This document shows positions 4,701 to 40,746 of a stretch of DNA of 64,000 bases, one piece after another. A program made the position numbers and the translations under genes. The DNA is from Patellaria atrata CBS 101060. Taxonomy: Eukaryota > Ascomycota > Dothideomycetes > Patellariales > Patellariaceae. Location: NCBI GenBank assembly GCA_010093705.1, contig MU006101.1, positions 409,614-473,613 of the forward strand, in the 5' to 3' direction. The first letter of the stretch is position 1. Every line of letters begins with the position of its first letter. The notes beneath the pieces are model-generated. The model worked only from the letters and a program-made list of their open reading frames with translations. It was not told the DNA's origin and made no database searches.

Positions 4701-5597
4701 CGTCGACGACGACCGGACTGTCCTAGAGTTCGAAGAGTTACGTCATCCTTGTATGCTCACCAGTGTACAAGACTTCATCCCCAACGATATCAAACTCGGT
4801 GGAGACTCGCCTAACATCGACTTGCTCACCGGCGCCAACGCCGCGGGCAAGTCGACCATCCTACGAATGGTACAGTAACCCCCGTCAAGCCCAAAACCAT
4901 AACTAACACGTATCAACAGACCTGCATCGCCGTCATCCTCGCCCAAATCGGCTGCCACCTCCCCTGCACCTCCGCCCGCATCACCCCCATCGACCGCATC
5001 ATGTCCCGTCTCGGCGCCAACGACAACATCTTCGCTGCTCAATCCACCTTCTTCGTCGAGCTCGCCGAAACCAAAAAGATCCTCTCCGAAGCCACACCCC
5101 GCTCTCTCGTCATCCTCGACGAGCTCGGCCGTGGCACCTCAAGCTACGACGGTGTGGCTGTCGCGCAAGCGGTGCTGCATCACGTCGCTACGCATGTAGG
5201 CTGCATCGGCTTCTTCGCGACGCACTATCACAGCCTCGCCGCGGAGTTTGCCGGGCATCCCGAGATCAAGAACGCGACCATGGCGATCGATGTCGACGAG
5301 GCGGAGAAGCGCGTTACGTTTTTGTATAAGTTGATCGATGGGGTCGCCGAGGGCAGCTTCGGTATGCATTGTGCGGCTATGTGCGGTATCCCGTCTAGGG
5401 TTATTAGGGTCGCGGAGGTTGCGGCTAAGGAGTTCGAGCATACGTCACGGTTGAAGGAGAGTCTGGAGATGGCACGCGGGAGGAGCTATGTTCCCCTCGG
5501 TGTGCAGAGCGATGTTGCGTGGTTGTTGAGAGGGGTGGGCGAGGAGGTGGGGGAGAGGGGGTTGGAGGTGTTGAGGAGAGCTGTTGAGGCGTTGTGA
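1714..5597 (+). CDS. MSH6: DNA mismatch repair protein MSH6
   Basis: Five exons: 1714-2142, 2194-2368, 2424-3235, 3283-4869, 4920-5597, giving 1226 residues in one frame. The MutS-alpha subunit binds mismatches together with MSH2. The N-terminus has a PIP box (QSILGFFQK) for PCNA, then an acidic/basic linker with KKRKR. The mismatch-binding domain starts near residue 341 and carries the Phe-Tyr-Glu motif at about 360-362. The lever and clamp regions follow. The ATPase has Walker A GANAAGKST near 989, Walker B LVILDELGRG near 1066-1075, and a downstream ATHYH. Introns are 47-55 bp. The ATG at 1714 has a strong CCACCATGG context; ATG 1741 in frame is an equally plausible start. The final exon is markedly richer in GC than the rest (see findings). 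Confidence 0.96.
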
Positions 5598-6308
5598 GTT
5601 GGTATCGTCGCTGTTGTATTTGTATAACTATAGTGTGGCTTTTTGTGTCTGGTTTTGGGGATGGTAAGGGAACATGGGTATCTTCGTATCTTTGTATCCT
5701 TTTGTAAAAGCGAAGGAAGTTAGGAGTTGTTGTCGTATAGATATCTACTATCGATACCCCTTTTGCTTCTGTTTCTATCGTTCGGATATGGGTGTATGAT
5801 GAAACTTGGACCCTTAGAGTTAACGCACTACCGTGCGCTACACCCTTGTACATTTTCTCCCTCTGGACTGCAAGGGTTGAGCATATCAGATCCTTCGAGA
5901 ACCAGGACGGCAGAGTAGGGTTTGCGTGATAGTGGAAAGGTAGCATATCACGACCATACTACGACCTTCATCTAACCCATCAAACCCATCCAATCCATCA
6001 AACAATCACGAAACATAGTCACAGATGCAGAAAAGGGGGATGGTCAAGCACGATCACCCACAACTCAACTACACACACACGCACGCACAGGACTCATTTC
6101 AGAAACTCGTATTGAATCTACCGGTACCACACTCCATCCTGTGGACCCACGCGTCTACTCATCGTATCCCAACTCCAGAAAAAGCGCCAGAGCGAAAATA
6201 TTCCCAGAATTCCACCAGGTATGGAATCATTAATCACACGTAAACGGCAGCGAAACCACGCACCAAAAGCTCCAACTCGTGCCGTGAAGATCGGTTCTGA
6301 TAGAGGAA
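5598..6308. other. Convergent 3' region between MSH6 and the small basic protein gene
   Basis: No gene is seen. It holds 3' UTR sequence, a C-rich stretch at 5940-6130 and a short CA-rich run near 6070-6090. Confidence 0.6.
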
Positions 6309-6968
6309 TCAAATACCCTCTTCCTCCTCATTAACAAAGCCAAAGGCATTGATGAAGTCCTCATCAACATCGGGTTCAGTCTTAAACTTCGCCACGTCTT
6401 CCGGGTCGCCGAAAGGGGAGCTTGGGACCGAGGTCGTCACTTCGTTCTTAGCCTTCTTCGGCGCGGGTGTTTTGACGCTTACGGCTTTACGCTTCTTGCC
6501 GGCCTTGGGGGTCGCGTCCAGCTCGTCGTCATCATCTCCAGATGCGGTGTCAGCCCAGGCGTTGGCGGATTTGGTTCTCTTGGTGCGTTTAAAGGTAGAT
6601 TTAGGGGTGTAGTTTGTGCCGGTGGAGCCGTTTCCGTTGGTGGTGTTGCCGGTGGCTGTGGCGAGTTTGCGCTTGAGGCCGTTGAAGATGACGCGGGAGG
6701 TCTCTGCGTTTTTATAGCCGGAGAGTTGGGCGAGCTTTTCGTGGTCGATCTGGATGGGGTTAGTGTGTGAGGTAGGGAATGTGTAGAAGGGTGCTGGGGT
6801 TTAAGAGACGATGTGTAGTACGGGATGGTAGTGGGAAAGGGTGGACATGGGATGACTGGGGATGTGGAGGCTACTAACCTTTACAGGAGCATCGAAGCAC
6901 TGCCAGGCGTATGCGAGTAGTTGCATCTCGCGGTCGCTGAACGCGAGCTTTGCTTTGTTATCCGTCAT
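6309..6968 (-). CDS. Small basic nuclear-type protein, unknown function
   Basis: Two exons on the minus strand: 6968-6879 and 6749-6309. The 129-bp intron has a GTTAGT donor and CACACTAAC branch. The product is 176 residues. Residues 1-60 look like a compact helical domain (FSDREMQLLAYAWQCF and KIDHEKLAQLSGYKNAETS) of a kind common in small fungal nuclear proteins and reminiscent of Myb/SANT-like folds. The remainder is low-complexity with Lys/Arg clusters (FKRTKRTK, GKKRKAVSV) that could act as nuclear signals, ending in an acidic tail. Chromatin or DNA binding is inference only. It is convergent with MSH6. Confidence 0.75.
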
Positions 6969-8323
6969 GGTGGATGAAGGAGATATTTATGTTTTGCGTG
7001 ATATGTGACTCGGCGAAATCTTGACAATGTTAATAGAACACAAAATGAAATGGGCCCTGCAAGTGGAAATGGCGCAGCAGAGTGGAGCAATGTTAGATCA
7101 AGAGTAGCAAGTGTTTGTTCATAGGTTGACACAAACAAGGAATTGATTATGATTTGAACAGTGAAAAGTGGGATTCGTAACTTACAGGGAGCTATGGGAA
7201 TGTTGAATGAGTTTGTGGAACGAAGCAGAGAGTTTCGAGAAGAGTGTGGTAGAAGTAGAAAGAAGCATGGAAAGAATAACAGAATTCAGAAAATATAGGT
7301 GCTGGCGCGAACGCCAAGCAAACAGTGTTTGAAAGTGAAAGGTGATAAGGTGAAATATGACTTGTCACATTTTAGGTTGCGTTATGTACATGCATGTGAA
7401 ATACGATGTCGGATTCAATCTGAACTTGTTTGTAGCGTCTAGGTGATAGGGCATAAGAAACGCGAGATATTGTACCTCCTGAGACTTTACAAGAAGTTCG
7501 ACATAATAAGGGACACTACTTACTGATAGCTCAAGCCAGACTTCCAACTTCAATATACCGTGCTTGCTCATCGACGTATCTCTTCATAGTATCAAACTCA
7601 GTCTTTCCAGTCTATAGAGATATCAGAACCTTCTCTGCTCAAGCTCAAGTTCTCACGGGATAGTGATTCGAGTCTTACCGAAACCAGATATCGTATATGG
7701 GACTAAGAAACGATGAGTTTGTTTGATAGTAAGTATGGTCAAAGGAAACATACGAGTTCGTTCACACCTTTATTTCTCTCGAACTCGCCTCTTGCATACT
7801 CGTACATTTCATTACGAGTAGACGAATCAGGGATCCCTATTGACGCATTAGATTCCTATACCAAAAAAGGCGCGGGTTCCTCATACGATGAATTGTGCGA
7901 AGGATCTCTCTCCAAAGAGAAATAACTCTTTGCCTCTGCACAAACTACGCAATGGAGATTACTAAATGCTTGATGAAGGATATCCCTCCTTGTCCTTTAG
8001 AGATTTTGCATACATGGTCAAGACTAAGAAACTTCCGCCTTTCTCTTGATGGGTTTCCGGAACTAGCGGTGGCATAAGTACGACTGAAGAGACGCTGCAG
8101 TGGCACCAACAGTCCTCTTGAACGCAATTGCATGATGTATAAATTATGATTCTGAAAGTCTTGTGATAGAGTGTCAGGACGAAGGAGGATGTCTATGCAC
8201 ATGATGTCAATTTACGGTTGTCACCATCCTGATGGTCTGAGCTTTTCTCGTCGCGTCTCCCATTGTCCCTCTTCTTGATATATTTGGTAGCCAATATTAA
8301 TATATCTTGCAATTAACTTCAAC
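6969..8323. other. Intergenic region upstream of NAA40
   Basis: This divergent spacer has several short frames (longest 85 codons), none coding-like. It probably holds promoters and 5' UTRs of the two flanking genes. No repeat was recognised. Confidence 0.5.
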
Positions 8324-9106
8324 ATGGTAACACATTTGCACAAGGGCCAAAAACGTAAGGTACTTTTAGAGTTCACTCACAATTCTCCCACAAGTATCCC
8401 GAAGAAACGCGTGAAAGAGTCTGAAGAAACGATGACTGAATCCAGCTCTATACCCGCGTCGCTATCCTCTCATCTAGAGCACCTGAATAAACTCTCTCCG
8501 TCAACATTCGCGGAAAAATATCTACCACTGGACGATCCTCTCCTCACTTTTTCACCACTCACCGAACCGTCCACTACATATACCATAACTCTAGTCCGCT
8601 CCGCCCATCTCACGACAACCGATTTTACAACATGCTTCTCCCTCATTGAAGTAACTTCATCCGCTGCGTACAGAAATTCATCTCGGGGATGGCATCCTGG
8701 TCTCAAACAGGCTGAAATGAAAGAGACAGATATGCGTTATCTACTTGTGCGCCGGGCCTCTACTTCTCCGTCTTCCCCATCTCCTATTCTCGGGTTTCTG
8801 TCATTCCAATTGACCCCTGAGCCCCCAGATATTGTGCTCTACGTCTACGAGATACATCTTTCAGCATCGCTACGAGGTTGCGGGCTAGGGACGCATTTGA
8901 TGGGGGTAGCGGAAGAGCTAGCGCGGAGAACGGGCATGAGGAAGACGTTGTTGACGGTTTTCACAAGTAACATTCGCGGAGAGAAGTTCTACCGAAATTT
9001 GGGATATCAAGAAGACGATATTAGCCCGGCGTCGAGGGAGTTGAGAGGAGGGAAGGTGAAGAGGCCGGACTATATCATTCTATCAAAGGAGGTAGAGGGA
9101 CCCTGA
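8324..9106 (+). CDS. NAA40: N-alpha-acetyltransferase 40 (NatD), histone H4/H2A N-terminal acetyltransferase
   Basis: Single exon, 260 residues. The GNAT fold is recognisable from SRGWHPGLKQAEMKETDMRY (about 120-139), the acetyl-CoA loop RGCGLG at 184-189, and the beta-bulge segment LLTVFTSN before FYRNLGYQEDDISP. This combination is characteristic of NatD, which acetylates the first Ser of histones H4 and H2A co-translationally. The N-terminal extension is basic (KKRVKESEE) and poorly conserved, so the true start could be a later Met such as the one at residue 37. The first half is C-rich and the second half G-rich on the coding strand. Confidence 0.88.
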   Translation: MVTHLHKGQKRKVLLEFTHNSPTSIPKKRVKESEETMTESSSIPASLSSHLEHLNKLSPSTFAEKYLPLDDPLLTFSPLTEPSTTYTITLVRSAHLTTTDFTTCFSLIEVTSSAAYRNSSRGWHPGLKQAEMKETDMRYLLVRRASTSPSSPSPILGFLSFQLTPEPPDIVLYVYEIHLSASLRGCGLGTHLMGVAEELARRTGMRKTLLTVFTSNIRGEKFYRNLGYQEDDISPASRELRGGKVKRPDYIILSKEVEGP

Positions 9107-9362: not shown

Positions 9363-11034
9363 TTAAGGTAAGAGATCGAACTCTTTATACTTTTCCTTCT
9401 CAACTTCATCTAGTTTTCCTTTGTATGCAGGGACTCCCCCAAAGTAGTAGACTAGCTGTCTAGGCTTTCCTGGTATATTGTCCCCAAAAAAGTAGCTGTT
9501 TGTCTCTTCGAGAAGAGTTCCTTTAAGGGTGCTTGTAGCGTGTGCGGACCATTCCTCTGTAGCATCATGTTGGGCTTCCACGTATTTCTTTCCCCTAGTT
9601 TTCATGTGCTCGAAGAGATTAACTAACCAGTCCCCTTGTAGCTGCGCGCATACAGGCCCATTACAGGTACCAGAAGGCGATTGTGGTCCATAGAGTGCGA
9701 ACAAGTTTGGAAAGCCTTCCATCGCCATACCTAAAAATGTTTTGGCTCCCGTTCGCCACTCCTCTCTCAAAGACTTTCCCTCTTTACCTCTGATGTCAAT
9801 CTGCGTCAGACTTCCTGTTGCTGCATCGAAGCCCGTTGCAAAAATCAGAACATCGAGATCACAGGAAGCCCCGGATTTCGTCTGTATTCCTGACGCAGTG
9901 ATGCTCTGTATTGGATCTTTTTGAATATCAATAATATCCACATGATCGTAGTTATAAGCCTCGAAGTAGGTTTGTTCCAATGGGACACGCTTCGTTCCAA
10001 AAGGATATGGTGAGGTTTTAGGGGCAAGAATACCAGCTTTCGCCTCATCCTTGATTCTTTTTCGAACACTATCTCTCCAGTATTCGTAGATGAGATCATT
10101 TGACTCTCGATCGAACATTCCATCAAAGTAGTTAGAACCCCAATAGCTGAAACCACCTTCTCCGTACAGACGATCAAACTCTTTCTTACGTTCTTCAGGA
10201 GAATCTTCTTTTGCCGGACGCATAATTGGGGCGCCATGATTACCGTCCCATTGAGTGAATCTATTTCGAAAGAATTCCTTCTTTTCCTCGACCGTCCTAC
10301 CATCGAATTCTGGATCGAACTCCCGTTGTTGCATAGGGGTAGCAAGCGCCGGGCTCCTCTGAAAGACAACCTAACACACCATTTAGTCTCATACGTAATC
10401 CCCAACCATCATCCACACTCACAAGACTCTTACACTCCCTCGCCACAGCCTGAACAACCTGCACCCCACTCGCCCCCGTCCCCACAACCCCGACCCTCTT
10501 CCCCCTCGTCATAATCCCCCCCTCCGGCCAAGCCGCCGTATGCGCCCACACCCCCTTAAACCCCTCCAACCCCTCTATCTCCGGCACATAAGCCTTCGCC
10601 GCATAACCCACCGCACACACCACAAACCTAGCCCTCCAGCACCTCCCATCCCTCGCCCGCACTACCCAGATCCCTTCCTTCTCGTCCCACCGTACCCCCT
10701 CCACCCACGTCCCGAACTCGCAATGCCGCCCCAGCCCGCCCAGTCGCCGCTCTGCAAACGCGAAGTACGCCTGGATCTCCTCGCGCGCGGGGAACCGCTG
10801 CGTCCATTTGAATCCCGCGTCCCCGTCCCAGAGCGATGGGATGTCGAGCTGGTAAGAGGGCACTTGGATGTCGACGCGCGCGCCGGGGTACGTGTTATGG
10901 TTCCAGATGCCGCCGAGGGAGGGTCCGGCGTCGAGGGCGCGGACGCGGTAGTTGAGGCCCAGGAGCCGGTGGAGGAGGTAGGTGCCGGCGAAGCCGGTAC
11001 CGATGATTAGGACGTCGAGGTCCGGGGGGGACAT
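9363..11034 (-). CDS. Baeyer-Villiger-type flavin monooxygenase
   Basis: Two exons on the minus strand, 11034-10423 and 10370-9363, with a 52-bp intron, giving 539 residues. The N-terminal FAD Rossmann motif GTGFAG is at 12-17. The type I BVMO fingerprint FKGVWAHTAAWP is at 159-170. The second, NADPH-binding motif GVVGTGASG is at 182-190, and ATGFDA follows in the C-terminal half. The enzyme should insert oxygen next to ketones using FAD and NADPH; the substrate is unknown. No signal peptide. Exon 1 is very GC-rich, exon 2 close to genome background, with an abrupt step near the intron. It is convergent with NAA40 only 256 bp away. Cyclohexanone- or cyclopentanone-monooxygenase-like annotation would be equally reasonable. 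Confidence 0.93.
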
Positions 11035-12490
11035 GGCGGTTTGCTATCGGTAGTGGAGTTGGGGTTTAGATGCGGGGAGACGTGGGTGGTGGGGTTGGAT
11101 TGTGGGGATGAGGAATTATATATTTGTTTAGGCCTCTCGTTGTATGGGGTGTGTTTTAACTCCCTTTGTTCTCATCATATGTTTTGAGGGATGATGACTT
11201 TGCGTCGGAGTTTTGGGTGCATGCTGCATGGTCATTCTTGTTTGACTGGGTTAGTCTTCGTTGTGATACTAGAGGATGAGCGGTGAAAGGTGGGTTGTAG
11301 AGGCGATTGGAGTTGAGCATTTCAGATCATGTCTTCCTCTGTTAATTAGCCCCTTTTATGTCGTCTTTCAGCTTACAGATCTTTAGAAGGTGGATAATCG
11401 CGTTATCTCTCGCCCTTCAATGATACTTGGTGTGATCCTTGTATAGACTATTTATGCTCATCCCTGCTATACTATCCGTTATCCCAAACCTTTCCTTTTA
11501 TATATGACTGGACGTCACTTTAGCGCTTCCCCATATCTGGCTGTTCAAAGCCTGCAGTAATGTGAAACTTGGTTCAGACAGAAAAGTTTTCTTTTTGGCA
11601 GTATCATCATCTGACTTCTATAGATTACCAAATCCCAAACGGGAATAGCACTGAAACTTCTCCGGAGTGCTCTAGTACCTAACGTAGTCTCCCTAATGCT
11701 CTTCATCCTGGGAAAGGAGATATCCCAACTCCTGGAAGTGTGACAATTGGGGAAGAGTCTTATATTGGTAGTGGGATTCCAACTTTGTTGAATCCATCAA
11801 ATTCCTCTGTATGTATTGATTTTGGAACTGAACCGTGTTCAAGTATTTTCTCCCCGACATACCGTACCCCTTTTTGGGTTTTTCGGGGAGTTTGACTCAG
11901 TCGGCATGAAAACATTTAAGGAGCCATTTAATTCTTATCTAGCAAAATGATTTCTTTCTTCAGCTTTCAAGTTCTCAAATATTTACTTTCGGTCCGGATG
12001 GTTTTTAATCAGGAATCATCCTCAGGTTGAAACTTCCTAGTCACCTTGGATGTGCTGTAGTCCGCCAGTTAACTCCTGATAAGTATGCGATTGATGTATG
12101 CGATTTATGTATGCATCTGCTTTCATAATGTGGGAACTTGGTCGTAAATTTGAGTCTTCCGCATATAGTGATATCGTACACCTTTCCAAGCAACCGGACA
12201 GCAATCATGAAATATCACGTTGAGGAATAGCATATAGCTTAAACCATTCCTGTAGAGACAACGCACAAGGGGATATCCCATTCGACTTCATTACATCAAT
12301 ACACCAGACAACCAAGTGCCTCGGCTTCATCGGAGGCGCCTCATACATAAGCCATCGGAGCGGAGATATCATCTTGAATCTGCACTGTCTGGGCATAAAT
12401 ATCGAGCTCAACCCTCTTTGTCTCTGTCTCCTTTCTTTCCTCCACAACATTCTCTCATTACTCACTTCCTCAATCTTGACTATTGAACAT
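11035..12490. other. Intergenic, upstream of the monooxygenase
   Basis: No gene can be supported. The left end is strongly G-rich on the + strand. The rest has average composition with no recognisable protein remnant. Confidence 0.5.
11116..11122 (-). promoter_or_regulatory. Possible TATA box of the monooxygenase gene
   Basis: The minus strand reads TATATAA 82-88 bp upstream of the ATG at 11034. Assigned by position only. Confidence 0.35.
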
Positions 12491-12537
12491 TGCAGATCTC
12501 CCCTCTTCCGTCACGACTAACAAACCCACACTCCGCT

Positions 12538-13200
12538 ATGCTCAAGGGCAAGATCGTGGGTTTCGGCCTCAGATTCCTATTCACTTTAGGGTCATCTGCC
12601 AACACTGATACCACAACCGGATCCACGGTTACCCATGAAGCCGTTCTAGCCTTCTTCAACATCCGCGTCTGGGAGTACATCTCTCACAGCTCAACCGTCC
12701 CATTCCACATCCACTAACACACTCCCAGCGACAACAAGCTCTACCCCGACCCCAACACCAACAACCCAACCCTCGGTTTCCTCGCCAAAACGGCACCTCC
12801 GCCGACATCGAGCTCTGGCGACATTTCTACCAGAACACCCTGCACGTCGAATTCAACGCCCACGAGAACGCAGACGGGACATACCACATCACCAACGGGA
12901 TGCGCCATCTCTGCTTGGCCGGCGGCAACACCGCACCCTACGGCCTCGACAAGTACCGCAACATCACGTTCCTGGCGGACCCCGAAGACGTGGGGTCGAC
13001 GGATATCGCTAAGGACTGGAGCATTCGTACTGATTACCTCGGCCGTCTTATCCTTGGGATTCCGGGGGAGCGATGATGGGTGCGGGAAATAAATGGGTTG
13101 CTCACTATGAGATTTATGTGTCGGATGATGGAATGGTTCATGATGGGATGACTTTTGCGCCCTGTGGTTGGTGTGATACGGAGGCGCTTTGTATGCAGTT
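12538..13200 (+). pseudogene. Decayed gene for an unrecognised secreted-type protein
   Basis: Coding-like sequence continues through different frames. From the ATG at 12538 the frame reads about 59 codons. A second frame resumes near 12790 with NGTSADIELWRHFYQNT and runs to a stop at 13074-13076. A third continues with KWVAHYEIYVSDDGMVHDG and CGWCDTEALC to about 13195. A frame change near 12780 is plausible because the preceding frame reads SDNKLYPDPNTNNPTLGF up to that point. I do not recognise the family. At least two frameshifts are needed unless unseen introns exist. The segment shows the left-C, right-G composition of the window's real genes, which supports a coding past. Confidence 0.5.
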
Positions 13201-14202
13201 TAAGTCTTTTTTTTTTTGAACTGTGAGGATCGGTGGTTCGTGATGACTGGGTGTTATCTAGATCTGTACTCTGGAACGGAAAGAGTTTTTGAGATTGTCC
13301 CGGCCCTGGGTTGAGGATTCTAGGAAAACTTTTAAGTCATCCATTTTATGTTCAGCTGCGGAATGAGCGATCTGAAGACGACTTTTGGGAATGTAAGATA
13401 TACATCCATAGGCTGGATAGGATGAAAAGAATCCTTGTAAACATATGTCTTTCCATATGAGATACGAGATTTCGGGAGAGATGACAGTTCCCTGTTGTAT
13501 TCCTCTCCTCCTGTACGCTCGCTTCTATCGTGATTGCGACTCGATGTACAGGAAAGTGAAAAACGCACGAATGATGCCCAACCGCATAAAGAGTTGACTA
13601 TACAGACAACCGAGGTGGTTCGAACTGCGGAATCAGTGATCTCCAAGCATTTGTTCGGATAAGTGTAAGGGGCTTGAGAAATGCTAACTGTGATAGGTAT
13701 CACGAAGACACCAAGGGCAATGGAGCAGAATATACATATTACGGAAGGGAACGAGGCTATACTAGTGAGTACAGTACAAGGTTTTAGTTATGGAATTTGC
13801 CTACCACATAGACGATATATATTTCTGGTACACCTCTTGACACGTGCTATCACCTGGTCATACTCGGCCACATGTTCCACTGTGTGCTTGGACTACCAAC
13901 ACTTTCTTCCGATAGAATATCCCTCTCTTTCTATACACTTGCTGGCCCAGTACTGTGGAGTTTTATCAATTGAAGCTCATCTAGAAAGAGCATAAGCCAA
14001 AGGCTTGGGTTCCGAAGAGAAGCGTATAGTAAGCCAGAAGTACCAGGGCAGGAAATTCCGCTTCAAAAAGCATCCACGCGCTTGCGAGGCTGTAGTAGTC
14101 ACTCCTCATCAACAGTGTGCACCGTTTGACTCAGAATCAACTGCGCTTGACTGTGGTGCACTGCTCACAATTTCCCCACGGCTAGGGAACGTGGTAGAAG
14201 AT
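13201..14202. other. Intergenic, downstream of the MFS gene
   Basis: No coding region is supported. Frames up to about 120 codons occur but lack coding character. There is a poly-T run near 13207-13217. Confidence 0.5.
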
Positions 14203-16650: not shown

Positions 16651-17457
16651 TCACACTAATTCTGTCACACTAGACAGTCCATAATCAGCATGATACAGCA
16701 GCCCACGATGGCCTGAACGCTGAATAAGCACACGAGAGCATTGCGATCCCAAATCCGGGAGGACTATACCACCTGACGTCAGTTGTTGCCGAAAGCATGG
16801 GACCAGGGTATCTAGGGGGGATGAGATAAATACCTGTGGCCACACTAAATGGTCCAGATGCTTCATCGCTTCCGTGATACCCTCATAAAATCTGCGCTGC
16901 TGATCCGCTTGCTGCGCTCCTTCGTTCGGCCGGTCCTTGTTGTACTTGAATGTGAAAGATTCTTTTGGTGGAAAGACTCCAGTCGTCTTATACCTATACA
17001 GCTCTCTCAATGTGCCATACACGTCCGGCCGCAGCATAGGATCATAGATGAAGTAGAACGCTACGAAGAAGCAGAGGCAGATCAGGACGTAGAACGCCAA
17101 GAGCATCTTCCAGAATCTGCTTGCATCTCCAACTGAAGAGTCCGGAGGGGTTCTATCATCTGGCGCTTTTATAGCGTCACCGGTCGTTGCGAAGTTGTCT
17201 TCGAACCGCGGGAAGAATTGAGGAGAGCCGTTCCTGTCAACGGGGAGACGCGAGGTGAAGAATCTGAAGAACAGAGGGGTGAAGCTGCGGGCGGGGTCTC
17301 CGGTGGAAGGAAAATAGGATGGTGGAGGAGTGGGTAGACGGGTGGTGGTTGAGGAGTTCGGAGGGTTGGAGTAACTGGGAGGGCTTAAAGTGGCAGGAGT
17401 AATAGTGGCATCGTCGAGGTCGACGGAAGAGAATGTTGCGGTGGAGCGAGTGACCAT
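16651..17457 (-). CDS. Single-pass membrane protein, unknown function
   Basis: An open minus-strand frame from ATG 17457 gives 268 residues; an upstream in-frame ATG at 17547 would add 30. The N-terminal half is Pro/Ser/Thr-rich. One clear membrane segment (LLAFYVLICLCFFVAFYFIY) is near residues 140-160, followed by a charged region with YRYKTTGVFPPKESFTF. The last 60 codons look random. A 61-bp intron (16833-16773, donor CAG/GTATTT, branch CTGAC, acceptor TCAG) would instead end the protein at a TAG at 16764 after ...WPQVV, giving 209 residues; I think this is at least as likely. No family recognised. Confidence 0.55.
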   Translation of the reverse strand: MVTRSTATFSSVDLDDATITPATLSPPSYSNPPNSSTTTRLPTPPPSYFPSTGDPARSFTPLFFRFFTSRLPVDRNGSPQFFPRFEDNFATTGDAIKAPDDRTPPDSSVGDASRFWKMLLAFYVLICLCFFVAFYFIYDPMLRPDVYGTLRELYRYKTTGVFPPKESFTFKYNKDRPNEGAQQADQQRRFYEGITEAMKHLDHLVWPQVFISSPLDTLVPCFRQQLTSGGIVLPDLGSQCSRVLIQRSGHRGLLYHADYGLSSVTELV

Positions 17458-20430
17458 GTTGTTTATTGTGATGATGTTTGAAATTTGCTGTGGTGGTAAG
17501 ATGGGATTGAAAATGGGAGGGAGTGAACTATTGGTGAGAAAGGGCATGATATATGCGAGCTTTAAGTGGGTTGTACCTTCTTTTGGTGGTATGAAAGTGT
17601 ACCTTGTTTACCTTTCGGAAGAAAGAGCTAAAGGGATGAGATGTTTTATCAGGAAAGCCTGATGGATTTCTCCTTCGCACTTGCCTATGAAACGAGAGCA
17701 ATGTCGCCTGTTGGTTAAGGAGAAATGAACTGGGATTTCAATTCTCACCGGCCATGGAGCAGTGCGTGCATCATTACTCCGTTGTATCAAAACCGGTTCA
17801 CAATCGGAAGTGCAGATGCTACCGCCGACTCAAGGAAGGAACAAAACAATATTCAAAAAGTCAAACACCACTTACCATGCTCCATACCTGACCCTCGTCC
17901 ATGGCGTGAACAAGTTCACTCATCGTCTACTGATTGGAGATGGGGAACTGGGTGTTAGTTTTACAGTGTTTCCAGTTGCAGTGATTAATACACGGGGGCT
18001 CATGTGTACGCGGGAAGCGGGTATTCGAATACTTAAGGGTATGAGGGCGCTTCCTTGGGGATGTCGAGACACAAAGTCTTCTGCAGGAGAAAAGTTCTAT
18101 CAAATCTGATTGTCAGTGTAGGCAGAGAATACTCGGATATTTCAGGACAAAGTAGGTCTACTGTCGTCTAAATAGGCGTAAAAAACTGATTTTCACTGGT
18201 GCAGAAAAACATTATGAGTAGAGAAACTATAAAACAGAAGGAGTATCCGCTGGAAATATTTAAGAGCGGGCAAGAATTCGTTGAATGGCTTGATTCGATC
18301 AATGATCCTGGCCATCAGGAATGGCTGACTTTGGACTGTTACATAATCCTTATCTACCATGAAAACGATTCCGGTTAGGTCCATCTCAGAAAGAGTCGTC
18401 GATTTTCCAAACATAGGAATACGATAGGGTTGTTTACAGATGTGGAAACAAGAGACAAAGACTATGCAATAACGACGCTGGCACCACACTCTAACAAATC
18501 GTGGCTAAATGGTTCGTTCGAGGAAATAATCACACGCAGAAGGGGAATCTTAAAGCCTCCACTAAAGGAATAGAGGATATACGAATGTGGATCAGGCCCG
18601 GGTGCGAAAAGGACGAGTTTAAGGATTGGTTGCGGAATACGTAGAAAACACTCCTCGAAAAAAGATATGGCCCAGGACAAGACTCTACGATTACTTTTAC
18701 TGTTGAGCCTGAGGTAAACCGCATCTGTAGGATTAAGGACGACATCGAAATAACTGCAATAGGAGGATGCTACGACAGTGCAATGATGGTCATCACTTCG
18801 GCCTAGACTCTATACCACGGTGTGGTACAGAGGTTTCTTAGATTTTGTTGTAGGGGAAGGAAAGGAATGTGTTCGGATTGAAAAATACTTACTGGATGGT
18901 TTTGTCGGACGAATGCCCGGGTCCAATGTCTTAGTTAACACATAGAACTAATATATCCAAATATCGGAAGCTTGCACCGTCATTTGGATGGTGCGGAGTA
19001 TTGTTCTGAATGGTTGTACTGACTATCAATGGAGCATATGAGTTTCGAGTATATACTTCAATACAGGACCATCGTTGAGTGAAGATGTAGTGTAAGTCCT
19101 TAGATGAACAAGCATGGTCGTAGTATGTTTAAGGGCTTAGTGTGGATTGTTATCTGTTGAGGTATCTCTGATATCGTGTTACGATTTCCCCAGCTCCTGA
19201 ATCTGGAAGTTGAGATCTGTTCTAGAACTATTTTGGGCAAGGCTGGACCAGGTGATGAAGCGAAGGGGGCTGAAAAGCTTGCTCAAACGACAACTTAATA
19301 CCATCACCGCAATAGCAGTGCCTGAGGGTAAGGTAATGACTCGAACACAGTAGAATGAAACTTAAACACTAGGTATTGTCAAGTCCTGCGATGTGACTCC
19401 GGTCCCGCTTTGTTCTTCTGCTGATTTCAATGCCACGACTCTAAACCGATGACTCGTGGACTAGATTTTTCACTAGCATCAGTAGGCTTGCTACCTGCTT
19501 TCTTTACCTCATCTTCTGGCCTTCGCCCTCCCTTTAAGTTTAAATAATCCTCTCTCTTGAGATACCCTTGAAGCAGTATCATACTGAGAGACATGACGCA
19601 TGCAAGCATGGTCTTCAACGACAAAGTCCTCACCAGCTTGCCGAATTCTTTTCACTTACTATACGGTCAACGAAGGTCCGATCATCCAGAACAGGTATTG
19701 ACTGAAGAGTTTCGGCTCCAACTGATAAGTCCAAAGAACGCTGCTCTTTACCTTCATCATGATCCGAAGTGTTATATCTGTCCCTTCATTTTCTGGCATC
19801 AACGAGGTCTTGTCCGATCTCTTGAGCTCCGGGTTTGCACGTCGTTTTTTCTTTTGACTGGTCTTCTGACGCTTATGAGTATTCCATAGGACTCGTCTTT
19901 TGCCGCTGGGAAGCTGCTTCAACCGTGACTGCCGCCTAAAGAGTCAACGGAATGTTAGTTTCGAACCACTACCGAGCAATATGCTGGCATACGAAACCTG
20001 CTTGTCATTCTAGAGATTGCGAACCTACGATTATCAATTGCGACACCGTTACGATTTTGTTGTTCAGTAGCTTTTGAGATGTGCTGTTTGGTCGCGGCGC
20101 CCGTTTGTTGACACGTGCCTCATATTAGCATATTCGCCCGCTTTATCAATGGGGAAGCTTACAGCTATTTCAAACATTCATAAGGTTTAATAGGTTATCA
20201 TGCTAATACATGTTACAAGATCTGGAATATGGGGTAAGAATGTTAGAATATGTGAGTTGAGGCTTATTGCGCTTTGTCTCATGCTCCGGAATACATTCAC
20301 CCACAGCTGTGCGGAAAACTCTATCAAGGAAAGTGCGATGCACTTTTTATACGATGAATTAATGATTGCCAAGCCCCTGAAACCTCCCATGTATTCATGG
20401 TTAGATGGCGGGATTTGTCCTTAAGAGAAC
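17458..20430. other. Gene-poor stretch of about 3 kb
   Basis: No gene is supported. Overlapping minus-strand frames at 18193-18745 have mild coding flavour but no recognisable family. The left end continues the G-rich 5' part of the membrane-protein gene. Confidence 0.45.
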
Positions 20431-20530: not shown

Positions 20531-20976
20531 CCTCCTGCGAGAACTTTCGGCTCCAGCCCAAGGATCCACCTAGGAGGAGATGGGTATACAGCGAGGTTTC
20601 ATTTTTTTTTTTGGGGGGTTTTTTCCTATTTTTACTTACTTGTAAGTTCACGTTAAGGGTGTATGTGTCTCATGAAGGCCAAGTTCTTAATTTATGCCTT
20701 CATCACCCACCCCAATAGTCATAAGCATATTTCTCGATTTACAAGATTGCGATGCGACGTAAAATAAGATTCGTACCTCGCTAGGTTCGAGCACGACGAC
20801 ATAAAACTTCACCACCATGTCAAAATTGGAAAGGATACTGGAGGGAAATGTTTTGGAGACTGCAGGTTTATCCAAACCCCAAGACATCTGATTCTGTCAG
20901 ACGTAAGGGTGCTGAAAATGATCAAGATAATCGCTCGATTGTTTAATGACTGTTCTAAAGAGCGTTTAAATACATT

Positions 20977-21058
20977 AGAACATGCAGGTTACAGCGTTTA
21001 TACCTACTAGGCAACTGAGAACATGCAGGCAACAGCGTTGATACCTACTAGGCAGCTG
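20977..21058 (+). repeat. 41-bp tandem duplication
   Basis: Two adjacent 41-bp copies (20977-21017 and 21018-21058) begin with agaacatgcagg and end in ggca(a/g)ctg. They differ at four positions. They lie just upstream of the recognisable LINE coding region and may mark its damaged 5' end or the target site. Confidence 0.8.
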
Positions 21059-21099
21059 TGTTAAAGGAATGATGCTAATAACTAGCGTAAGGCAGTAGG

Positions 21100-23923
21100 A
21101 GATATACTTGATTATCCTTTCCACCAAGATCTTCAGTCTAACAAGGGGACCCATACTTCAACACCAATAACCTCAGACATTTTCAATAGGCTATATAAGC
21201 TTCTATTTCAAGTTGGCTATCATCCCAGGATATGGAGGGAGGCGGTAGGAGTTGTGTTACCAAAGCCTAATACAGAAGACTACTCCATACTAAAGTTATA
21301 GGATTATTTCCTTACTCAACTGTTTAGGCAAGACTTTGGAAAAGATCATGGTAACAAGACTAGGATATCTAGCAAACACCACACACCTACTTTAGCACTC
21401 ACAGATGGGAGGAAGGCAGCAGCGCTCTACTATTGATGCAACGCTCTTACTACTAGAGTATATCCAAAGACAGAAGGCTGGCAAGTCAGGAAATAAGAAG
21501 GAGGTTACCTCAACATTACTATTAGATGTGAAAGGAGCTTTTGATTATATATCAAAGAATCAACTACTGTCCACCTGCAAGCAACTAGGACTCCCATATA
21601 GTCTCTACCAATGGATCTCATGCTTCTTAACTAATAGAAAGATGTAGCTAATATTTAATGGAGAAAGGCAAGAAATGCGCAGCATAAATGTTGGCATACC
21701 CTAAGGCTCACCAATCTCACCAATTCTCTTCTTAATCTACATTAGGAAGATCTGTAAGGATAGGAAATGGATCAATTTACTAACCTATATTGATGACTTT
21801 TCACTTATAGCAGTCTCAACATCTGCAAAGAAAAACTGCAAGCTGCTTGAACAGGCTGCCCAAGACCTAATCTTAATAGCCAAAGAACATGGTATACAAT
21901 TTGACATTGCAAAAACGGAACTCATCCACTTTCATAACAAGAGGACACCAATCCAGGACTCAATCTACCTCTTCAACCAAGTGGTCCAGCCAAAGCTAAT
22001 GGTTAGATGGCTTGGGATGTTCCTAGACTCAAAACTCACCTTCAAACAGCATGTAGAAGGAAAGATTAAGAGTGTAGAAAATGCAATATACAGGATCCAA
22101 AGGCTAGGAAACACACAGAGAGGTCTATCAATGCAAGCGGTGCGTAAGCTGTATATTGCATGCGTCAACTCAATAGCAGACTATGGAGTACCAGTGTGGT
22201 GGAACCCTAATCACAAGAACAGTCAGCAAGTTAGCAGATATCAAACCCTATAGAACAAGGCACTGAGAATGATTTTGGGTGCCTTTAAGACTTCTCCAAG
22301 CATGGCCATGGAGATTGAAGCAGGCTTACCTCCTCCAATCGTTAGATTCGAGAAGTTGTGCAACTCGTATGCTTTTAGAACTCTAAAGTTCCATAAGGAC
22401 CATCTAGTTAAGAGAGTTCTCGTGGAAGAGCTTAGAAGAGATGACTTAGATGCAACCCAAGACACCAACTTAGAAGCAGGCAATACCTCAATCAGTTGCA
22501 TTGCTAGACCAAACACGCAGCTCCTCTCCCTGTTGCAGAGAACCCAGGGCTTTGTGACCAACTGGAAGATGGAAAAGATTTCGGTATACAATACTCAACC
22601 TTGGAGGGCAAAACCAAATACGTTATTCATCATCTCCAGTGAGGATAAAGAAAAGGCATCAAAGGAACATGAAAAGCTAGTCAGAGACTTGGAAGGAGTT
22701 ATAAGGGATGGTCTAGTTAGTGTCTATTATACCGATGGATCTAAGGAAGGGAATAGAAATGCTGCAGGGGTATACCAGATAGGAAACAATCAGCGCATCC
22801 TGTTTGCCAGCAACTGGAACCTAGGAGACAGTGTTGAGATCATGGATGCAGAACTGTTTGCCATCCTTAAAGCACTTGAAAGAGAAAAGACCCAATGTGA
22901 GAAAGGACAATCCATTGCCAGAAAGCTGTGGGTATTTATGGACAGCCAAGCAGCACTTAAGAGGCTATAAAAGAATAGCCTTGATGGAGGACAAGAATTA
23001 AGTGTGCTAATAACTGACTTATGCAATACTCTTACCAATGAACAGGGCATGAAGATCACGTTTTGCTGGGTTCCTGGACACAAGAACATCTTTGGGAATG
23101 ATGTAGCAGATAAACTGGCTAAGAAAGGACTGGAACGCAAGCCTATAGGCACTTCATTCACTTCACTCAATCATATCAAACGAAAATGCAAAGAGAAGAT
23201 TCTATCTGATTGGAAAAAGAATTGGGAGTCTAATAGAAAGAAACAAGGGAAACATTATATGCGCATCTGTAGAGACCGGGTGCATTTCTCACTTAATATA
23301 CCTAAGTCCAATTTACAGAAAAAGATCCAAGCGGCCTACATCCAACTTAAGACTGGTATTGGATTCTTTAAGTCTTACTCTAAAGTGATTGGAAAAGATG
23401 AGGAAGGGAAGTGCTTTGGAGACTGCCAATCACTTCAAACACCAACACACCTTATCTTACATTGCTCTAACTACTCTAGAGATCGTAAAGAAATGAGAAA
23501 ACTACTCAGATCAGATCTAACAATGACAAAGCTTTTTTGCACAAAGTTAGGTAAACAAGTGTTACTAAAATATATAGAAAGAACTCAAATCTCTACTGCT
23601 AGATGGCTAATGCATGCAGGAGACGTAAATAGAGTAGAAGAGTAGATTCTACAAAAGATAACTAGATGTATGGCATAGAACTAGAAACCAAGAACCGATG
23701 GCAATGAGAAAGAATAGATGCTTCTACAATTTCCTTCAGATGAATTTTAGAGGTCTTAGCTTTCCTTTGTAAATAATATCAGTGGACTAAGCCACTAGAG
23801 ACTTCACTAAGCATATGAGGGCCCTGAAAAGGGATTTATGTATATAGGAAGTTGCGCCATAGCTTAAAGGCTGCATGCGCAGTATTGTCGGTAATGCAAT
23901 ACAATGGAATTAAAAAAAAAAAA
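21100..23923 (+). mobile_element. 5'-truncated LINE (Tad1/I-type non-LTR retrotransposon) with RT, RNase H and zinc knuckle
   Basis: Reverse transcriptase is recognisable from about 21175 (IFNRLYKLLFQVGYHP) through GGRQQRST, LLLDVKGAFDYI, GIP-GSPISPILF and the catalytic YIDD. RNase H follows with YTDGS, a MDAELFAI helix, VFMDSQAAL and HKNIFGNDVADKLA. A C-terminal knuckle is CFGDCQ...HLILHC. From 21405 to 23645 all is in one frame, interrupted by four stops at 21645, 21702, 22251 and 22968. Each stop is TAG or TAA where CAG or CAA would be expected. One upstream frame shift lies near 21290-21300. The 3' UTR is 23646-23911, then a 12-nt poly-A at 23912-23923. ORF1 and endonuclease are absent, so the copy is truncated and dead. 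No target-site duplication was found. Confidence 0.9.
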
Positions 23924-30750: not shown

Positions 30751-33143
30751 TTCAAATTGCGATTTCCCGTTCTGACTGTTTTACTAGTCGAGCTTTTATT
30801 TCCCAAGGGCACCTTTCAGAAAGGAATGAACTCAGTAGTAGTGGAATATTTTAGGTGATGATTAGTTAATATCTCATGTCCAGCATGGGATATTGACTTC
30901 GGGTCGAATCCGAATAGAAAAGGTTACACTAGGGCTAAATAAATAGAGTACAGTGCGCGATATGCTTTCCGGGATATACTGTAGCAGGAGTACCAGCTGG
31001 GTATGGTTCGCGCGTGTAGCTCTCGGATATAGTAAAAGTTTGATTGATAAAATCTCATACACATGCAAAAAGGAGAGAAGCCAAACGGCGAAGGTTGCGC
31101 ACCGCGTAGGAGGGGAATCAGACGCCTTTAATATCGAGGCAGGTAGACGGTCGAGGCTGAAGCCGGATTAGGCTCTGGCAAGGCTCAGCATAATGATATC
31201 GGTTGCTGTACGCTGTTCCACGAAGCCAAGCCTGCAGACAATCAATAAACGACGGCCTCTAGAAATAATCGGACAGGCTGTAAAGGTCAAGGGTCAAAGT
31301 ATCGTAGGGATCCACCAGGGGGTACCGAGCAAGGCTAAGAGCAATCTTTGGGTAAAAGACAGTGAATTTGCTTCCAGCATATCCTGCAAAGAGGACGACC
31401 GGGAAAGGAGGGTGTTGTCGGGTAGTCCCCTCGCTATAAAGGAAGAATAATTGAAGGCCATGTTTCTGGCGTTTCCCCCTTGCTGTTAGGACTTAAGAGG
31501 ATTGACGGCGCAGTTCCGCACTATCCTCTCCAACGGTTTGGGCTTGGGCCGGGCGAAGATAAGAGAGCAACGGCAGCCATTCCTCATACAGAGCACTTGT
31601 GCAATTTTGTACATCGATAGCCTGTCTCTGGCTTTAATTTTGCACTGATTTGCTCCGACTTATGCCAGTTTTCGTTTTTCCGGTCAGCCCTTGGCCTTAC
31701 AGGCCAATTTCCAAATGCAGAACATCCGAGCGAGATTTACCGCGTACTTGTACAGTAAAAGTTCAAAATAAAAACTTTGAACGACATATTCGGAATCGTG
31801 AATCTTCTAATAAGTGATTTTCAGATAAAGGTAAACAATTTCCGTATGAACGAAGTATTGACTTCAGGTAATAGTACAACTTGTGAGACTCATTCCGAAG
31901 GATTGGTGAATAAGGCGACTTGCCGCACGCCAAAAGCGACTGCATTGCATGCAAGAGTCAAGCGTTTTCTGCATCAAGCGACTCATGTGGATTGTGGAGA
32001 CAGAGTGGAGTCCTTGAAGTTCAACGTCCGGATGAATTTATCAGTAAGCACTTGCTAGCTTTAAAGACAGGCTATGATAACCGCTTCGTCCACGAATTCT
32101 GAAGAAAAGATTAACATCCATGCGGGACCATTATTAGGAATGAATTCGCAGAGTATGAATAATATGTCAACCACCAGAACTTTTGCTGTCTAAGGGGTAC
32201 GCATTGATGGCGCTGTGAAGGCACTCAAAGACAACTCAAATGATTCTTCTGCTAATCAACTTTGTGAAAAGTAGAGGATACTATCAACTTCAACACTTGG
32301 TCGTTTACTGATAGGATTCGTTTCATGATGTCTCAAAGGTCCGTTCATCCTTTTGCAAGGGTTTAAACTGCAAACTGTAGCGTATTGAAACGAAGAGGAA
32401 GCCACCGTCACATCACGTCCACTTTAGGACTGTACTGTAAGAGTAACTGTCAATGGTCAGTCTGTAAGGCGGGTTTGGTTGTCAATACCTGCGAGTCCAC
32501 CATGTCCAACGGACAATAACAAGTCACGTAGTACTCCGTACGCGAAAAAAGACGTAAGGTATCTCTTCGAGCTGAAAAAGGCTCATATCATATCGACTGG
32601 CGTGTGCCTATGGCGGGATTGAAGATGTGCGAGATTCAGCTGTGGATGCTAATCTTTTTGCTTTTTCGACCCATATCGTTGGTTTGATTTGGGTCAGGCC
32701 GAGAAGTTGAGGCCTTTTAGTGCCCTTAGTGGTCTCTACTAAGGCGCAAAGCACGCTATCGTGGCTACCCAGCCACCCGACGTCTCCTTAGTAACCCAAC
32801 CTCTCCCTAGCCACACACTTTACTCATGATATTATACCCATATATTCCGCCAGAGTACGTCATCTCGTTATACAAGAATATTTTACATTTCCCCTTTCTA
32901 TATATCTTTTCCCTTACATCCCTCTGGTGTTCTTGTCTGAAGCGCAAGTCTCATGGAATCGTGGTTGTAGCTTCCCCCGCCATTGCTACCCCACCACGTG
33001 CTGCAGGATCGTCGTCAGTTCAGCTCGATCTGACAGTCAAGTCCAACGTCGGCCAAACCCCGTGCTACAAGTACAAGACACTTTATTCCAACCGGAACCT
33101 CTTTAGGAACACTTGTTACTCGACTATATAATCCACCTGCGAC
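30751..33143. other. Intergenic, 2.4 kb, upstream of two divergent genes
   Basis: No gene supported; the frames present lack coding character. The right end (32700-33140) is C-rich and holds the promoter and leader of the MARVEL gene. Confidence 0.5.
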
Positions 33144-33823
33144 ATGGGAATTTCGGGCTTTCTCTTCATCTCATGGCGTCTCGCCGAGATAGTTACACTC
33201 ATCCCGACCCTCGGGATGATGGCCTACTTCGTCCACGGCTACATCGAGGCTAATCAACTACAACCAACCTCGATTCTTTTACTGTTCATAGCGTCTGTTC
33301 TCGCGGCAGCATGGGCTATCGCGACATTATTTGCATACGCAAAAGCACGGCATTCGGCCATGTTCGTTGCGACGGTTGATCTCTGCTTCGTCGGTCTCTT
33401 CATTGCTGCCGTCTACTACCTTCGGGGAATTGCACGCGCGGATTGCTCCAACTTTCGCAATGATCGGTTCTTTGCTTCCCTGGGTATCTTAGGATACTCG
33501 GGTACCATTTCCGGCTACAAACCATCATTCCATATCAACAAGCATTGCGCCATGTTGAAAGCCTGCTTTGCATTTGGAATCATGAATTGCATTTTCTTCT
33601 TCATCACATTCGCGAGTCACCCCTTTTCCTTCCATTTATATTCCATTAACTGACTTTTCAATAGCTGCTGGCTCTTCTGGTTCATCGTAACCACAGGAAG
33701 GACGATGTCGTCGTCAAGCGAGAGCGCCACGTAACCCGACATGGCCATCGCGGCAGCCGTGAATACCATTCTAGCAGTCCACGGCGCTCGCACCACAGCA
33801 GCCGCCGTCAATACTATGTTTGA
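33144..33823 (+). CDS. MARVEL-domain membrane protein, four TM
   Basis: Two exons, 33144-33611 and 33665-33823, giving 208 residues. Four hydrophobic segments fit the MARVEL fold: residues about 10-30, 42-65, 73-92 and 145-165. An extracellular loop contains two Cys. The cytoplasmic tail is basic and ends RRSHHSSRRQYYV, as in many fungal MARVEL proteins. The family organises membrane microdomains and vesicle contacts. The 53-bp intron begins GC (TTC/GCGAGT) and ends CAATAG with an AACTGAC branch. Only this non-canonical GC-AG splice joins FFFITF to LLALLVHRN in frame; the nearby GT at 33616 does not. Confidence 0.88.
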
Positions 33824-34561
33824 ACTAGTAATTCCGACAAGCGACGTTGCTATATAGGCGAGAAGACAAGATCGGGAAAGGTGTTCTGGTTTGTTATATG
33901 GATCAATCCTGTTGGACTATGGTTGATAAAGAACGGGCGTGTGTAAATGAACTTCTCCGTCGAGGGTTGATATATGCTTATCTCGAGATATCACTTTGAC
34001 CTTTTAAACCATATTGGAAGTCTCATCTATTTCTCATTATATGATATGATATGACGGAACGAATCTCACCTAGAATGGTTAGGACTGTACGAGCACAGTC
34101 TGATTTATTAGGAATGTATGTTATCTAACTTTTTCTTCTTTGATACCTAATTCAATTATCTCCTTGTTTAACTCGAAATGTACGGAGAATCATAGTTAAA
34201 CTTTTCGTATCTAATACTATCGTGGTATTCCTCGCATACTTACGTTCCCTCTTCAAAGTATCTTTGGCCCTACTGTACGGGAATAGTCACACGTGTTAGG
34301 TAGTCGAGCCGTACAACGAACTCCACCATTACAGTACAGGCTGCCGAGATGTCGTGGTTCTTCAGATTTACTAACCATTCGGTGCAGTAAATGTTAACCT
34401 AAGCAAGCATGGAAAGGCGGAGCATGCCAAATCTTGACAACGAGGAGATATGAGAAAGAAACTATTCTCCCGTACCAACAGCATCCCCTCAATACTTCCA
34501 GTAATTGGTGGTAAGGCAGCTGTCAAGGTACTTTGTAGATTTGAGGGGAAATATCGGCTAT

Positions 34562-34720
34562 AAAAGTGGATCGTCATTAGCTCATCTGGTAAAGGATAGT
34601 CTGAACACCTTTGCACGACCTGACTCAGGTTAGCCCGCGGAAACTAGGATCATCGTGGTTCTAATATCTTAAGTACCACCTTAGTGTATAACGACCGCAC
34701 CTCTCAGTCCCCTAACAATT
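34562..34720 (+). repeat. Dispersed SINE-like repeat, copy A
   Basis: It contains tagctcatctggtaaag, a good tRNA A-box and D-arm word, at 34578-34594. It shares with copy B the core 34627-34659 (aggttagcc-gcgg-aactaggatcatcgtgg, 31 of 33 positions) and a diverged right flank with tataacgaccgcacctct. Confidence 0.6.
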
Positions 34721-36411: not shown

Positions 36412-36429
36412 AACAACAACAACAACAAC
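36412..36429. repeat. (AAC)6 microsatellite
   Basis: Six uninterrupted aac units in the gene desert. Confidence 0.9.
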
Positions 36430-39400: not shown

Positions 39401-40018
39401 CACCCCTAGAACTTCAGAATACTGTACGCTTGGTGAACTTTCTTCAGCTTCAGTTAACCAACATGTGCTTTTCGAGAGCTTGGATTACCAACGGTGATGT
39501 TGGTCTCCGGTTGTCTCCGGTTACACAAGAACTCGTTTGGCTATATACCACTGGCGTATTAGCTTTTCCGCGACCACGTTGAGCCCTTAAGCAAAGGTGG
39601 AAGCCCCCCGATGTCGATCGCTGCGTTTATTCCAGCATTTGATTCGAGGGAATCGATGCAGCGCTTCTTCCATCACCGCTAGTCGGCAGCATATTGATAG
39701 CTTACGTATACGACTTATCAGCTTTGATAATTACCACCATCTATAGCTTGTAACTGATGTTCTATCCACTTTGCCTAGCATATGCGAGGGTGTAGATTTC
39801 CTTCTGATCCACGGTACTTTTTGAGTTCTGTGCGCTACTCTTCTTGATTTCTCACTTGAATTGAAAAGTTTTTGAAGGATGTTGCTTTTCTTTTGGCTTT
39901 TGCTCTTTTAGGAGATTATGAAAATCCCGTTAAGGGGTACATATAGGACAGTTCTGATGTAAAGAACGATCTGAAGCGTCGAATATCGTTAAAACTCTAC
40001 CTCTTCGACGTCAGCTAA

Positions 40019-40285: not shown

Positions 40286-40746
40286 CAGAGCACGAAGTGA
40301 TTGTTTAGTAGCGACATTGATATATGTAGTTATATATCGGTCTGTGCACTGGATCTTCCGCCTAGCGAGGATAGAGACCGGACTAGTAGAACAATCAATC
40401 CATAATCTACGGTCTTTAGCGTACTAGTTTTGATCACGTCTTCGTTTCAAAATTCAGCCAATCCAATATCGAGAAAGAGAACGTTCTGAATGAATAATTG
40501 GTTGTATCTTTGAGTTGAACCGTGCCTGTACTTTAGGATGCGCTAACCACCGTAAATTATTGCATGGTAGTGGAGGTATAATTAAAAGACGAGCTTAGAA
40601 CTAGAGAAGATAGGGAAACGTTTGACGGCAAGGCGTGAGTAAGATTTCTATATGTAGATGCGGTCTATTGGAAACGATAACATTGATAACCCGAGGCCCT
40701 CCTGAAATCCTCTGATAATCTTTAAATGATGGAGCAAGCTAAAACA

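Follow-up and report, generated by a model that had tools for sequence, protein, structure and literature searches.

Within the last exon of a MSH6-like gene of Patellaria atrata CBS 101060, the + strand passes from C-rich to G-rich: positions 4921–4980 hold 32 C and 10 G, and positions 5521–5580 hold 38 G and 1 C. These counts come from a first-pass annotation of the same DNA and are exact; the name MSH6 is also taken from there, and in the present analysis the gene is MSH6-like with a MutS_V match. The annotation listed seven further pairs with the same C-left/G-right order. This raises the question of whether the order is a general property of GC-rich islands in this genome and, if so, whether the flip in each island marks a point in the DNA, such as a replication origin or a meiotic double-strand break, or belongs to the genes themselves.

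The window is the whole stretch of DNA surrounding this exon, 64,000 nt long (contig MU006101.1, positions 409,614–473,613), from a 28.3-Mb genome in 46 contigs. The sample totalled 334 kb and was made up of the window, 10 kb to either side of it, 200 kb of a second contig (C2), and a further 50 kb drawn from four more contigs. Islands selected by GC alone (400-bp GC of at least 0.55, with skew ignored in the choice), skew profiles and fourfold-degenerate sites were analysed in the window and the C2 stretch alone (264 kb). Skewed segments were called using a three-state hidden Markov model (HMM; neutral, C-rich, G-rich) that was symmetric in its emissions and favoured neither order. Exons and introns were identified with home-made finders run without a check against annotation, and weak or misplaced exon calls are likely. 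Predicted exons make up 45% of the sampled sequence, exons below the score threshold being excluded from the counts, and the intron finder accepts GT-AG introns of 40–130 nt only (78 introns, median 54 nt).

Recurrence and anatomy of the islands

The seven further pairs, and the MSH6 island when split at position 5160, all go from negative GC skew in the left part to positive GC skew in the right. The earlier list was therefore right in its signs but selective, because a lone arm (17208–17573), a pair with widely spaced arms (52134–53592 and 54802–55230) and a C-G-C-G series (57435–58625) also occur in the window. One of the listed pairs (5940–6130/6580–6870) has the sign claimed but is weaker than the rest: its left side has a GC content of 0.46, and the segmentation calls only the G-rich side, at 6541–7270.

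The preference for this order extends well beyond the window. Of 66 islands selected by GC alone, 53 have the C-left/G-right order (window 12 of 15, C2 stretch 41 of 51; binomial p = 7e-7), and skew changes greater than 0.3 across them run upward in 37 cases and downward in 2 (binomial p = 3e-9). In the 334 kb, the HMM found 27 isolated two-part blocks of C–G type and 2 of G–C type, with 61 C-to-G and 25 G-to-C junctions in all, and lone arms that were G-rich in 16 cases and C-rich in 7. With A and T left out of the segmentation, which removes any bias from GC content, isolated C–G blocks number 17, 18 and 17 at three settings, against 1, 2 and 5 of G–C type. Shuffling the 200 kb of C2 in 100-bp tiles abolishes the preference (C–G/G–C 10/11 and 8/7 in two shuffles). 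Genome-wide, the words CCACCC and CCCACC are followed 185–215 bp further on by their reverse complements 164 times (75 + 89), compared with 71 times (35 + 36) in the reverse order, where one count in each sum is the tool's backward control. The sign changes thus do not fall in random order: within the 264–334 kb the C-to-G sense is clearly preferred, and the recurrence that the first-pass annotation had reported is real and genome-wide.

The islands are compact. In C–G pairs the C-rich arm has a mean length of 398 bp and the G-rich arm 407 bp, the two lengths being uncorrelated, and local skews in the arms are 0.4–0.8. Mean skew is approximately zero past 500–750 bp from the flip (264 kb). GC content is maximal at the crossing, at 0.57 for C-to-G flips compared with 0.47 for G-to-C flips. 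Read outward, the G-rich arm of the 61 pairs has the composition A 0.222, C 0.158, G 0.385 and T 0.235, against A 0.269, C 0.231, G 0.231 and T 0.269 outside pairs, from which it follows that the asymmetry is almost wholly one of C versus G. A/T skew is nearly absent from the G-rich arm (61 pairs) and does not follow GC skew; the nine flips of the window, taken alone, have a slight A-left/T-right trend.

The 61 flips in 334 kb correspond to approximately one per 5.5 kb, and show no clustering at the 10 kb scale (variance/mean 1.04, p = 0.42). A search near the flips gave no clear centre motif: the enriched words, compared without a formal test, nearly all hold CG, as expected where a C-rich and a G-rich arm meet. 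The 7-mer CCGCAAC (either strand) lies within 100 bp of 12 of the 61 flip centres, compared with 1.75 expected from flanking controls, a value uncorrected for the number of words tried. No paralogous exon pairs of more than 40% identity, of use for timing substitutions, were found in the sampled sequence.

Table 1. Skewed arms and associated features in the window (positions counted from its first base; C-rich and G-rich refer to the + strand unless coding strand is stated)
Feature	Position	Strand	Basis
C-rich arm: end of preceding exon, intron, first half of MSH6 last exon	4773–5242	+	HMM segment; MutS_V match 4920–5597 +; intron from sequence
G-rich arm: second half of MSH6 last exon, stop (ends 5597), about 80 bp beyond	5243–5678	+	HMM segment; sequence
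G-rich (coding strand C-rich): 5′ part of predicted gene 6312–6974 and beyond	6541–7270	−	HMM segment; exon prediction
C-rich arm within 813-nt open frame, about 8291–9103	8442–8873	+	HMM segment; open frame
G-rich arm at the 3′ end of that 813-nt open frame (about 8291–9103)	8874–9068	+	HMM segment; open frame
C-rich (coding strand G-rich): downstream half of open frame 10297–11043, gene presumably oxygenase-like	10354–10830	−	HMM segment
G-rich (coding strand C-rich): ATG region and upstream, gene of frame 10297–11043	10831–11317	−	HMM segment
C-rich arm, overlaps predicted plus exons 12535–12714 and 12786–13019	12407–12983	+	HMM segment; exon prediction
G-rich arm, right of the preceding arm	12984–13316	+	HMM segment
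Lone G-rich arm: C-rich 5′ part of open frame 16807–17598	17208–17573	−	HMM segment; exon prediction
C-rich arm, 5′ part of gene with weak CHRD match (E 7.6e-4, under Pfam cut-off)	51252–51792	+	HMM segment
G-rich arm, 3′ end of weak-CHRD gene	51793–52133	+	HMM segment
C-rich arm upstream of and over 5′ end of serine carboxypeptidase gene, frame 52970–55114	52134–53592	+	Peptidase_S10 E 6e-81; HMM segment
G-rich arm over 3′ end of serine carboxypeptidase gene	54802–55230	+	HMM segment; sequence
C-rich: G-rich body and 3′ end of CutC-family gene	56010–56607	−	CutC E 8.7e-34; HMM segment
G-rich: C-rich 5′ end and upstream region of CutC-family gene	56608–57008	−	HMM segment
Two successive C–G cycles in iron-alcohol-dehydrogenase gene: C 57435–57596, G to 57777, C to 58038, G to 58625	57435–58625	+	Fe-ADH match; HMM segments

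The arms in the window are listed in Table 1, and their layout differs between genes. MSH6 carries both arms at its 3′ end, the C-rich arm lying just upstream of the G-rich one and far from the gene start. In the serine carboxypeptidase gene, 1.2 kb of GC-rich (about 0.6) and nearly unskewed DNA separates the two arms, and this layout speaks for gene ends over a single break point. Double C–G cycles resembling that of the iron-alcohol-dehydrogenase gene are also seen in genes near C2:1129046–1130281 and C2:1167472–1168674. Among other MutS-family loci, in a scan that left out MSH6 itself (L004), a C–G pair is present in three of seven (L003 1007–2220, L001 2510–3376 and L005 1–673), overlapping the MutS_V match in L003. 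Elsewhere in the window, the region from about 31000 to 50000 has few predicted exons and zero skewed segments called, and the 270 bp at 20895–21164 are 97% identical to approximately C2:1002283–1002551, perhaps as a repeated element.

Position relative to genes and codons

The first-pass annotation described the order as independent of gene direction and concluded that transcription could not explain it, which is a logical slip. A C-left/G-right pattern is its own reverse complement, and its presence in both plus- and minus-strand genes therefore excludes nothing: a transcript that is C-rich early and G-rich late will give C-left/G-right on either strand. Because occurrence on both strands is uninformative, linkage to genes must be judged from position.

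C-to-G flips lie in predicted exons in 46 of 59 cases (40 of 54 and 28 of 38 at other settings), and G-to-C flips lie outside predicted exons in 29 of 35 (24 of 33 and 17 of 25), mostly at GC troughs. At 50 nt before the stop codon, the segmentation has the coding strand as G-rich in 28 genes, C-rich in 3 and neutral in 75 (n = 106); at 50 nt after the ATG it is C-rich in 11, G-rich in 1 and neutral in 66 (n = 78). For a strand-symmetric element, this stop/start bias is equivalent to saying that its centre lies inside genes. The skew at the 3′ end exceeds 0.3 at 29 of 105 gene ends and is below −0.3 at none (mean +0.17), and in windows internal to genes the corresponding figures are 1 and 7 of 99. 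Flip centres fall outside predicted exons in 12 of the 61 cases, at least one of these 12 being within an 813-nt open frame. In terminal exons, which contain 28 of the 61 centres, 18 are located 135–400 nt before the stop compared with 7.9 expected (p = 5e-5), the range having been set after inspecting the data. Enrichment near the ATG was not significant (9 of 21 against 6.2 expected, p = 0.13).

In genes chosen for a skewed end, the skew continues approximately 100 nt beyond the stop and 200 nt upstream of the ATG. It amounts to −0.37 in the 100 nt before the ATG (18 genes) and +0.32 in the 100 nt after the stop (28 genes), where the windows used to choose the genes extended 50 nt beyond the coding sequence. 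The 3′ ends of 102 genes comprise 28 that are strongly G-rich, 30 that are intermediate and 44 that are flat in both skew and GC; with so many intermediates, a division into two discrete gene classes is not supported. The 28 genes with a G-rich 3′ end are also C-rich further upstream, a property for which they were not selected: skew is −0.26, −0.19 and −0.21 in the 100-nt bins from 700 to 400 nt before the stop, and weaker, about −0.15, in the 15 such genes with exons of at least 900 nt. Between the C-rich upstream part and the G-rich 3′ end of the 28 genes, GC reaches a maximum of 0.57. The GC rise outside genes is small (0.47 compared with 0.45).

The 46 complete genes of at least 500 nt include 9 with a C-rich start, 13 with a G-rich stop and 5 with both, and within this set the GC content of the gene core correlates with the difference between 3′ and 5′ skew (rho = 0.53, p = 1.3e-4). 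Five exons contain two C-to-G flips, three of them being double cycles along a complete gene. A two-cycle model for long genes generally is not supported, the mid-gene reversal being non-significant in 19 genes of at least 1100 nt (p = 0.33).

The annotation also held that codon usage alone does not explain the pattern, and here we agree. Across 40 strong upward flips, fourfold sites change from −0.56 to +0.35 in plus-strand genes and from −0.34 to +0.52 in minus-strand genes, and non-coding bases change from −0.49 to +0.44; because these flips were picked by skew, the effect sizes are inflated, but the order preference is not. Of the 78 introns, the 4 inside C-rich arms have a skew of −0.59 and the 7 inside G-rich arms a skew of +0.44, with GC contents of 0.49 and 0.46 respectively, compared with 0.40 for the 67 introns outside arms. 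Fourfold sites, introns and intergenic DNA are thus all skewed, and codon choice as the cause is ruled out by the skewed introns and non-coding DNA. The skew change persists at both fourfold and non-coding sites in the 264–334 kb, where the annotation had suggested looking for its loss. Introns seem rarer in skewed genic sequence (11 in 40.8 kb, compared with 67 in 135.8 kb outside), and skewed splice sites may hamper their detection.

Gene ends, recombination and other readings

We think it probable that the islands are a strong form, concentrated in GC-rich genes, of the gene-end GC skew known from most fungi examined. They would then be GC-rich protein genes or gene ends in which the coding strand is C-rich 5′ and/or G-rich 3′, the skew continuing into flanking untranslated DNA. 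Where a gene is short, its arms would meet and resemble one island with a break point; in a longer gene they would lie at the ends, or one end alone would be affected, or the cycle would be repeated. Such a pattern could arise from strand-asymmetric mutation or repair that differs between the start and the end of a transcription unit, its main effect being on the orientation of C:G pairs, together with an AT-to-GC push that may act in the same genes. The position relative to predicted genes, the sign, the independence from codons, the flat A/T skew and the link to GC content are all direct observations.

Transcription-linked asymmetry leads, given that the arms track gene ends and that many fungi share the phenomenon. 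We nevertheless name transcription rather than recombination as the driver only tentatively, at a little under an even chance. Counter to a general effect of transcription, the majority of gene ends carry no skewed state (neutral at 75 of 106 stops and 66 of 78 starts), and such an effect therefore needs a reason to strike some ends only. In addition, the genes with double cycles are unpredicted by a simple 5′-to-3′ ramp, and mutational strand asymmetry alone gives no explanation for GC being highest at the flip, the very point at which skew passes through zero.

A GC peak is part of what recombination would provide. Each flip could be a meiotic double-strand-break hotspot in or beside a gene, with biased conversion raising GC and strand-asymmetric heteroduplex repair giving the polarity, an explanation to which we give perhaps one chance in several. 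If the break lies at the flip, the heteroduplex on its left would hold the broken + strand, and a G/C heterozygote would give either G.G or C.C. G.G would be repaired efficiently, usually to the donor, and C.C, which is probably repaired poorly as in yeast, would exert less opposing pressure, giving a net drive on the + strand to C on the left and G on the right, which is the sign observed. The higher GC at the flips than at reverse flips (0.57 and 0.47) fits this scheme, as do the similar mean lengths of the arms (398 and 407 bp) and the absence of long-range skew, the nearly symmetric A/T, CpG and TpC that are not depleted, the restriction to a subset of genes with one flip per 5.5 kb or so, the GC-richer introns inside arms (0.46–0.49 against 0.40) and the one match to a SPO11-type domain in the genome. 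It fits less well that the centres are mostly in coding sequence, since yeast meiotic breaks usually occur in intergenic gaps, that the GC rise is so small outside genes, and that the flips have no clear centre motif and are unclustered at 10 kb. In the portions available of the relevant papers, yeast meiotic hotspots correlate with GC peaks (PMC5736917), and human break-linked mutagenesis appears opposite in sign to the islands: C>N and A>N are reported for the forward strand, which is the strand exposed to the left of the break (PMC7615360). The suggestion of the first-pass annotation that resected breaks may lie behind the islands meets this same difficulty, as the human observations, on our reading of them together, should deplete C on the left, where the islands are C-rich. 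That the flips preserve a fossil record of where recombination began at gene ends, with the GC peak coming from biased conversion and the polarity from unequal repair of G.G and C.C in two heteroduplex arms of opposite strandedness, strikes us as rather unlikely. If recombination were nonetheless the cause, break sites could be located from a single genome sequence, and the fungal 5′-C/3′-G skew would be a signature of recombination and not of transcription.

Replication and selection both appear far less probable. At an origin, forks leave the centre both ways, and the lagging-strand template on the right of the + strand would lose C and gain G. The C-to-G sense of the flips is, over a short range, the one expected at origins, as the annotation had remarked. 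One flip per 5.5 kb or so is dense for origins, the flip positions follow gene ends, and the skew falls to approximately zero within 500–750 bp instead of extending along the replicon; we therefore rate origins as a highly improbable source of the islands, even though G-biased leading strands yield the C-left/G-right sense (PMC3315797, in part) and human constitutive origins are described, in the available part of one report, as having a local GC rise and base-composition skews and as enriched in gene bodies (PMC9645720). Selection on the transcript or the DNA, either as C-avoidance late in transcripts, which McLean and Tirosh proposed for transcript 3′ ends (PMC3315797, in part), or as large-scale mRNA pairing of C-rich with G-rich arms, is also a very improbable cause, because introns and flanking non-coding DNA share the skew.

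Pairing of the arms and cytosine deamination were both rejected. In the first 30 of the 61 islands, the arms fold no better than after shuffling inside 30-bp windows (12 shuffles per island; mean z −0.30, sd 1.21), which speaks against hairpins between them. Cytosine deamination does not fit because C is lost without CpG or TpC preference and T is barely above A in the G-rich arm.

Comparison with known systems

Gene-end skew in fungi was described by McLean and Tirosh in 2011, and the following rests on the available part of their paper (PMC3315797). On average, in most of the unicellular fungi covered there, the coding strand is C-biased 5′ and G-biased 3′. The skew is present at fourfold sites and also at first and second codon positions, reaches into promoters and 3′ UTRs, and is accompanied by an A/T skew that stays flat from one end of the gene to the other; tested one by one, 33% of C. 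albicans genes show a significant change. McLean and Tirosh propose transcription-phase mutational pressure or C-avoidance at transcript 3′ ends. They also found GC skew to be negatively correlated with GC content, a measure that differs from the rho of 0.53 obtained here.

Islands of this type were said in the first-pass annotation not to be known. The average gene-end pattern is already in print (PMC3315797, in part), and to that extent the statement falls; break-point islands in fungal genes were not described among the matches listed from the open-access literature, and to that extent it stands. We are confident that the islands are tied to genes and of the known fungal kind. What is added here is their concentration in GC-rich genes and the GC peak at the flip.

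P. atrata displays a published average trend at the resolution of single genes, tied to those that are GC-rich. The GC maximum at the skew crossing separates mutational models, as it is not predicted by transcription asymmetry alone. In these genes codon and amino-acid content is distorted, with consequences for both gene finding and phylogenetics. A caution also follows: since C-left/G-right is self-reverse-complementary, meeting it in genes of either direction does not weigh against causes linked to genes.

Human systems, as far as the available text of each report goes, offer partial parallels. Human constitutive origins share the local GC rise and the change of skew at a point, and are often in gene bodies (PMC9645720); unlike them, P. 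atrata has a skew that ends by about 0.5–0.75 kb and is placed by gene ends. Around human meiotic hotspots, as in the islands, the asymmetry changes sign at a centre, over roughly 1–2 kb, but the sign appears to be opposite if the flip is the break site (PMC7615360). The fungal skew of McLean and Tirosh, again from part of their paper, shares with P. atrata the C-rich 5′ and G-rich 3′ ends, the presence at fourfold sites, the reach into promoters and 3′ UTRs, and the flat A/T skew. It differs in being mostly an average over all genes with a ramp-like form, whereas in P. atrata the skew is concentrated in a GC-rich subset, most gene ends are neutral, and GC is maximal at the crossing.
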